Positions 5,667-59,165 of a stretch of 59,277 bases of DNA are shown here, piece after piece (positions within the stretch are counted from its first letter, which is position 1; each line of letters starts with the position of its first letter). The DNA is from Alphaproteobacteria bacterium. GTDB taxonomy: Bacteria; Pseudomonadota; Alphaproteobacteria; SP197. The position numbers and the translations under genes were made by a program. The notes beneath the pieces were generated by a model. It was given only the letters and a program-made list of their open reading frames with translations. It ran no database searches and was not told the origin of the DNA. The stretch covers positions 1-59,277 of the forward strand of contig VGDP01000019.1 in NCBI GenBank assembly GCA_016869675.1, given 5' to 3'.

Positions 5667-5736
5667 TCGGCTGGGCGACGCTTGATGGTCCGCGCCAGGG
5701 CGCGCGGCACTCCCATCCCCAGCGGGCGGATCCATC

Positions 5737-58442: not shown

Positions 58443-58892
58443 ATGGGCCGGGGAGACGCTATAGCCTCGGGGTTGTTCGATCTGAGCGGACGGGTCGCGG
58501 CCGTGACCGGCGCGGGCCAGGCATTGGGGCGCGCCATTGCCGGCGCGCTCGCCTAGGCCGGCGCCTGCGTGCTTTGCGGCGCGCGCACCCTGGCCAAGCT
58601 TGAGGCGACGGTCGTGACGATCCGCGCGGCCGGCGGCGAGGAGCCGGCCACGCCCGATGAGGACGGCTTGCGCCGCTTCCTCGAAGGGACGGTGATGCCG
58701 TGGTTCGATGGGCGCAAGAAGTAACTCGTTAACCGCCCGCTGATCCGCAAACAGGCCTTCGGCGAAGCGCTGGACCCCGACAAGCTGGAGCGGCTGGGCC
58801 CCTACGAGGTGCATCTCGACCGCAAGCTCGAACGGATGCTAGCCATGCTGCTGGGCCTCAGGGACCTGCGGGCGGGCGCCGCTCCCGGCTGA
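58443..58892 (+). pseudogene. Chimeric remnant: SDR start joined to unknown gene ends
   Basis: From the ATG the frame reads LFDLSGRVAAVTGAGQALGR, an SDR cofactor motif, but meets a TAG at 58554-58556 and then continues AGACVLCGARTLAKLEATVV. After IRAAGGE the SDR pattern ends and unrelated sequence follows (DGLRRFLEGTVMPWFDGRKK, TAA at 58722-58724, then LIRKQAFGEALDPDKLERL and YEVHLDRKLERMLAMLLGL, ending at 58892). The last part resembles C-terminal helices of transposon-associated hypothetical proteins, with low certainty. Two or more deletions must have made this string. Confidence 0.65.
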
Positions 58893-58934
58893 TCCGTTTG
58901 GCAAAACCGCTAATCGCGGGTCCTGCCGGGGCGA

Positions 58935-59085
58935 TGTGAACCGGCACGGGGATTGACCCCCGATCGGCGCCGAAGGCTGACCCCACCGTGGGTTCCGTAC
59001 GTAGTTCAACCGGCATCCAAACTTCACGATCCGCTTGGGTCACGGTTGGGCGCCGAAAGGGGTCAAACTTCGGTGCTTATTCACA
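58935..59085. mobile_element. IS21-type miniature element with 6-bp target duplication
   Basis: A 151-base element bounded by TGTGAA and TTCACA. Each end carries the stacked subterminal repeats typical of IS21: on the left GATTGACCCC and then CGGCGCCGAAGGCTGACCCC; on the right, read on the other strand, GTTTGACCCC and then TTTCGGCGCCC. The six bases on each side are identical, GGGCGA (58929-58934 and 59086-59091), a target-site duplication of a size IS21 elements make. No istA or istB remains between the ends, so it is non-autonomous, either a deletion derivative or a MITE. Confidence 0.75.
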
Positions 59086-59165
59086 GGGCGATCCCATGCG
59101 GGGATGCTGGGCGCGGGATGCCGCCAGCCCGACCCCGCCCGCCGTCTAATACCAACCTGCATTGA

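Follow-up and report, generated by a model that had tools for sequence, protein, structure and literature searches.

Identification of an IS21-type MITE with two right-type ends

We identified a 151-bp mobile element near the right end of the window (the whole 59,277-bp stretch analysed, which is the entire contig C19 of a 3.49-Mb alphaproteobacterial genome in 97 contigs); it is very probably a non-autonomous IS21-type MITE that has two right-type ends and would be moved in trans by IstA and IstB. The element, located at 58,935-59,085, starts and ends with TGTGAA...TTCACA when the sequence is read directly, contains no gene (istA and istB are both missing), and is flanked by two copies of GGGCGA, at 58,929-58,934 and 59,086-59,091; the flanks can also be read as a 7-mer duplication, GGGCGAT. 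Ends and length agree with a preliminary description of this DNA, whose 163-bp interval is the element plus both duplications.

Each end is 50 bp long. End A (58,935-58,984, plus strand, TGTGAACCGGC...TTGACCCCCGATCGGCGCCGAAGGCTGACCCC) corresponds to the end on the istB side of complete IS21s, and contains an outer TGACCCC repeat at 58,954-58,960 and an inner one, 24 bp from the outer, at 58,978-58,984; in our orientation of the element (plus strand), this right-end-like end is placed on the left. End B (59,036-59,085, TGTGAATAAGCACCGAAGTTTGACCCCTTTCGGCGCCCAACCGTGACCCA on the minus strand) is the most conserved part of the family. Its outer TGACCCC repeat is at 59,059-59,065 (GGGGTCA on the plus strand), and its inner repeat, at 59,036-59,042, is degenerate (TGACCCA, or TGGGTCA on the plus strand): the GGGTCA at 59,037-59,042 is the remnant of a fourth repeat that is intact (GGGGTCA on the plus strand) in the sister copies. 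The stacked GACCCC repeats reported earlier for both ends are thus present, with the fourth eroded in the window copy. The interior between the two ends (58,985-59,035, 51 bp) is gene-free and, according to a comparison of interior identities, not conserved between lineages.

MITEs are known for many IS families. Like bacterial MITEs in general, the element is non-coding, short (below about 600 bp) and multi-copy at unrelated sites, with inverted-repeat ends and a target duplication; movement in trans by an IS transposase, common to bacterial MITEs, is what we infer for it as well. Its TG...CA tips and at least two repeated transposase sites per end are those of an IS21 end, and it encodes neither of the two proteins of an autonomous IS21 (IstA and IstB), so the earlier view of a gene-less IS21-type mobile element holds. 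Compared with other bacterial MITEs, it is distinguished by IS21-type ends with two internal repeats each, and by a family length that is near-constant across lineages while the interior is unconserved. It is therefore an unusual variant of an ordinary class, with right-right IS21 ends, a drifting interior, and a dispersed distribution across Alphaproteobacteria.

Insertion and target duplication

The element inserted at this site and duplicated 6 bp, as directly evidenced by paralogous empty sites with one target copy. We removed the element and one GGGCGA from the window and searched the genome with the joined flanks. C45 aligns gap-free across the joint (216 bp, 92%; relative to the filled sequence, 177 bp of left flank and 37 bp of right flank), and C34 aligns across it over 71 bp (86%), reading ...CCTGCCGGGGCGATCCC..., with a single GGGCGATCCC and one GGGCGA. 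The target is in single copy at both empty sites (the variant AAGCAA in C45, GGGCGA in C34), and filled and empty sites differ by 157 bp (151 + 6). An exact flank match of at least 6 bp was found in none of 3000 re-paired flanks. The GGGCGA flanks are thus a real target duplication, as had been proposed, and the element-free site suggested as a check exists as paralogous sites within the same genome.

Target duplications in the IS21 family range from 4 to 8 bp. Among the 27 copies of the miniature element that have both ends, only the window copy has an exact 6-bp duplication. Two of 11 distinct copies of complete IS21s of the same group have a duplication (6 and 7 bp), so the scarcity of duplications is common to autonomous elements too; it is likely, though not proven, to be due to age and flank rearrangement. 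We also looked for a preferred insertion motif in the flanks of the copies and found weak biases only, and empty sites for the copies in genome G571, sought in their genus, gave no convincing spanning match. A previously characterised IstA makes a 5-bp target duplication (PMC10122671).

The preliminary description further suggested that such an element could promote deletions like those next to it. This idea is reasonable in general, since ISPve1, an IS21 element of Paracoccus, has been reported to delete large segments of target plasmids (PMC3281130), but it does not apply to the window copy: its left flank is colinear with the empty site over 177 bp and its right flank over 37 bp, which shows that no deletion begins at the element, and the broken short-chain dehydrogenase frame (58,460-58,720) falls outside the colinear stretch, further left.

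Two other repeated sequences lie around this site. CCCGGCTGATCCGTTTGGCAAAAC...GGGTCCTGCCGGGGCGATCCC is found in C19 (58,460-58,934), C45, and C34 (L212, L213), each time in a different context, and may be a dispersed repeat containing the target site. The end of the contig (59,148-59,277) is a multi-copy sequence shared with G004 and with the edges of C46 and C23; its minus strand (...CQAWNNLVDQPWQFMSIGPREWANGF*) is, judged by eye, presumably the C-terminus of an IS630-type transposase.

Copies in the source genome

A nucleotide search of the genome found seven matches to the element (four complete copies and three fragments), so the additional copies that had been suggested as a check do exist. 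The complete copies, in C19 (the window), C30, C87, and C15, are each exactly 151 bp and 93-99% alike, with unrelated flanks; the fragments lack the left tip (C14) or retain only an internal part (C63) or the right end (C35). Relative to the four-copy consensus, the window copy has 5 changes in 151 positions and its sisters 2, 5, and 6, indicating that the window copy is not notably younger; the earlier characterisation of its insertion as recent is not borne out. Fifteen genomes from the source organism's family yielded no copy.

The three sister copies have no exact 6-bp duplication, despite only 2-6 changes from their own consensus, and no empty site was found for them: the paralogue of one flank ends at or near the element, and the second flank is unrelated. 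In each case, other sequence seems to have taken the place of one flank. For example, the right flank of the C87 copy has a paralogue in C45 that extends exactly to the edge of the element, and 8 bp to the left of this copy is what we take by eye to be the end of an IS3-type element. For the C15 copy, paralogy between the right flank and C51 begins at the edge of the element, and the left flank resembles C64, the likeness stopping 4 bp from the element. The C30 copy truncates a gene for an ABC-transporter substrate-binding protein, an intact version of which is present in C27; at the junction, genomic ...GATGACCGTG/TTCGG is joined to the element's TGTGAACC at a common GTG, with the element's first T missing. 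This looks like a deletion or rearrangement at the element edge, and it is the only deletion-like junction among the copies in this genome.

We also observed that the repeat stopping 4 bp from the C15 copy, which ends in ...GATGGGTCCCATCC(A/G)CGCGCTGGGTCCCA and recurs in C64 (6,500-7,800, L236), may be an IS end. In addition, the truncated C35 and C14 copies (L214, L215) have GCTGAAGACACGA in common just outside their broken left side, and the right flank of the C30 copy contains GCTGAAGACA; together these are possibly a common joining sequence.

Relation to IS21 elements

A 17-base stretch of end A is present in 55 stretches of public genomes, mostly from Alphaproteobacteria. In eight of those loci it forms the outer portion of an end of a ~2.5-kb element encoding an IstA that is 55-60% identical to the IstA found in the source genome (C69). 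In complete IS21s from other Alphaproteobacteria (2.5 kb, istA identified), the end that resembles end A sits on the istB side and reads TGTCAATCGGC...TTGACCCCCGATCGGCGTCCAA..TTGACCCC; the search for a full IS21 with the same ends, which had been recommended, thus gave a match at the istB-side end. Mean identity to seven IS21 right ends is 75% for end A and 71% for end B (48% for shuffled sequences), and to IS21 left ends 63% and 60%, respectively. None of the autonomous IS21s that we collected has an end that exactly matches end B (TGTGAAnAAGC..GAAGTTTGACCCCTTTCGGC).

The spacing of the TGACCCC repeats separates the two kinds of IS21 end: it is 24 bp in all seven right ends and 33-34 bp in all five left (istA-side) ends. 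Both ends of the miniature element are spaced by 24 bp (the inner site of end B having one mismatch in the window copy) and neither by 33-34 bp, which makes it a "right-right" element. The extra 9-10 bp of the IS21 left end may correspond to about one helical turn. Overall, the miniature element shares with the IS21 family (IS21, IS5376, and the 2.5-kb elements in L013, L052, and L059) the TGT..ACA tips, two stacked TGACCCC-type repeats per end, the 24-bp right-end spacing, and a duplication of 6-7 bp when present. It differs in lacking istA and istB, in its length (151 bp versus about 2500 bp), in being right-type on both sides, and in the family-specific sequence of end B.

In the source genome we found no complete IS21 with this pair of ends. 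The istA gene of this group is present as one partial copy at a contig edge (C69, 472 aa, open to the edge, with the left end TGTGAAATCGCGG..TGACCCC), and istB as a short fragment at another contig edge, no complete copy being found. The partial IstA is a candidate transposase for the 151-bp element. An Agrobacterium "transposase" (L101) near an end B was also considered as a partner, and rejected, since a single element end was found there.

Proposed mechanism and alternative explanations

Both outward-facing ends of the element have IS21 right-end architecture, with two TGACCCC-containing IstA-type sites 24 bp apart. In the mechanism that we propose, an IS21 that is resident in the genome or passes through it would provide IstA and the helper ATPase IstB in trans; these proteins would bring the two right-type ends together, cut them, and connect them to the target, with a duplication of 6 bp. 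It was found that an IstA tetramer forms on two ends, recognising R1 and R2 repeats separated by 23 bp, and that in vitro it works with right ends alone as well as with both kinds of end, left ends being about two-fold weaker; right-right complexes were made (PMC10122671). The IS21 transpososome with IstB was rebuilt on a 130-bp donor terminated on both sides by a right end (PMC11208146). These observations make a natural 151-bp right-right element, moved in trans, biochemically plausible. The synthetic donor resembles the natural element in having a right end on both sides and a similar length; the natural element, at 151 bp, is dispersed in genomes. Right-right pairing may be what makes so short an element workable.

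The earlier suggestion that the element is IS21-derived stands as far as its IS21-type ends are concerned, but not as a simple deletion derivative of one IS21, in which left and right ends were fused after loss of istAB and the product moved in trans. We consider such an origin unlikely. In its favour are the likeness of the element's ends to those of IS21 and the frequent occurrence of this IS21 group across the class. Against it, the 33-34 bp left-end spacing is found at neither end and the 24-bp spacing at both, and the 150-153 bp layout recurs in several families with interiors that cannot be aligned, which independent deletions would not yield.

The element could also be a dead relic, an old short repeat once equipped with IS21-like ends and now spread only by duplication or recombination of larger segments. 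The copies of Rhizobium and Bradyrhizobium type, which are old (about 80% identical to each other) and without target duplications, are consistent with this, as are the identical flanks of two copies in genome G524; we nevertheless find it quite improbable, since the highly similar copies of the source genome lie in unrelated flanks and one of them has a target duplication and empty paralogous sites. It is very improbable that the sequence is instead kept for its fold, as a functional RNA or regulatory hairpin (terminator-, REP- or RIME-like). The single-strand folds are strong (z of -3.6 and -5.0), but such folding is expected of any inverted-repeat element; no Rfam family matched at its gathering score, conservation falls on the TGT..ACA tips and the TGACCCC sites, which is also the pattern of IS21 ends, and one copy truncates a gene.

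A wider family in Alphaproteobacteria

The MITE with two right-type ends is not confined to the source genome. A loose pattern, TTGACCCC-N85-112-GGGGTCAA, applied to 385 genomes returned the copies of the source genome and three chance matches without inner repeats, so a sequence-only model was used instead. In an even draw of the class, 16 of 385 genomes had any match to the model, many of these matches being IS21 ends and not miniature elements; of 296 genomes in the family of Bradyrhizobium uaiense, 11 contained complete or nearly complete elements, with five near-complete copies in G571, a genome in a single 7.6-Mb contig. We observed the same layout in Pseudolabrys, B. uaiense, a Bradyrhizobium japonicum plasmid (two), Rhizobium gallicum megaplasmids, Sinorhizobium sp. 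RAC02, Rhizobium sp. CIAT894, and one genome of another family.

Among the 27 copies with both ends, 15 are 151 bp long and 23 are 150-153 bp, the rest being 145-149 bp. Between lineages, identity is 76% for end B and 68% for end A, and 50% for the middle ~50 bp (48% for shuffled sequences). Thus length is kept in this family, and the sequence between the ends is not.

We found no description of an IS21-derived MITE or miniature IS21 in the open-access literature searched, and the family appears to be undescribed, although absence from the record is not proven. It is possible, though we would stop short of calling it probable, that this is a widespread and so far undescribed "right-right" IS21 miniature family of Alphaproteobacteria, in which the geometry of the IstA/IstB synaptic complex fixes the length (modal 151 bp) but leaves the interior sequence to drift; the family would then be the natural counterpart of the minimal donor with two right ends employed in vitro. 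The fixed length raises a testable question: is there a minimum or a phased end-to-end distance that the IS21 transposase, a tetramer around which the ends wrap, requires? The end pattern and fixed length will also help annotators to recognise elements that are now unannotated between genes in rhizobia and their relatives.

Phage records contained no match to the element. A Sinorhizobium-like end B, TGTGATTAAGCGTTGAAGTTTGACCCCTTTCGGCGC, is present on a viral contig (L105, IMGVR_UViG_3300047531_000017, ~5670-5720), and these elements may therefore ride on phages. Another miniature element (L180, G639:C108:1-3500) is split by a ~1.6-kb insertion containing a 532-aa open frame, which, from its CPLC motif and general look by eye, we take to be an ISL3-like transposase.
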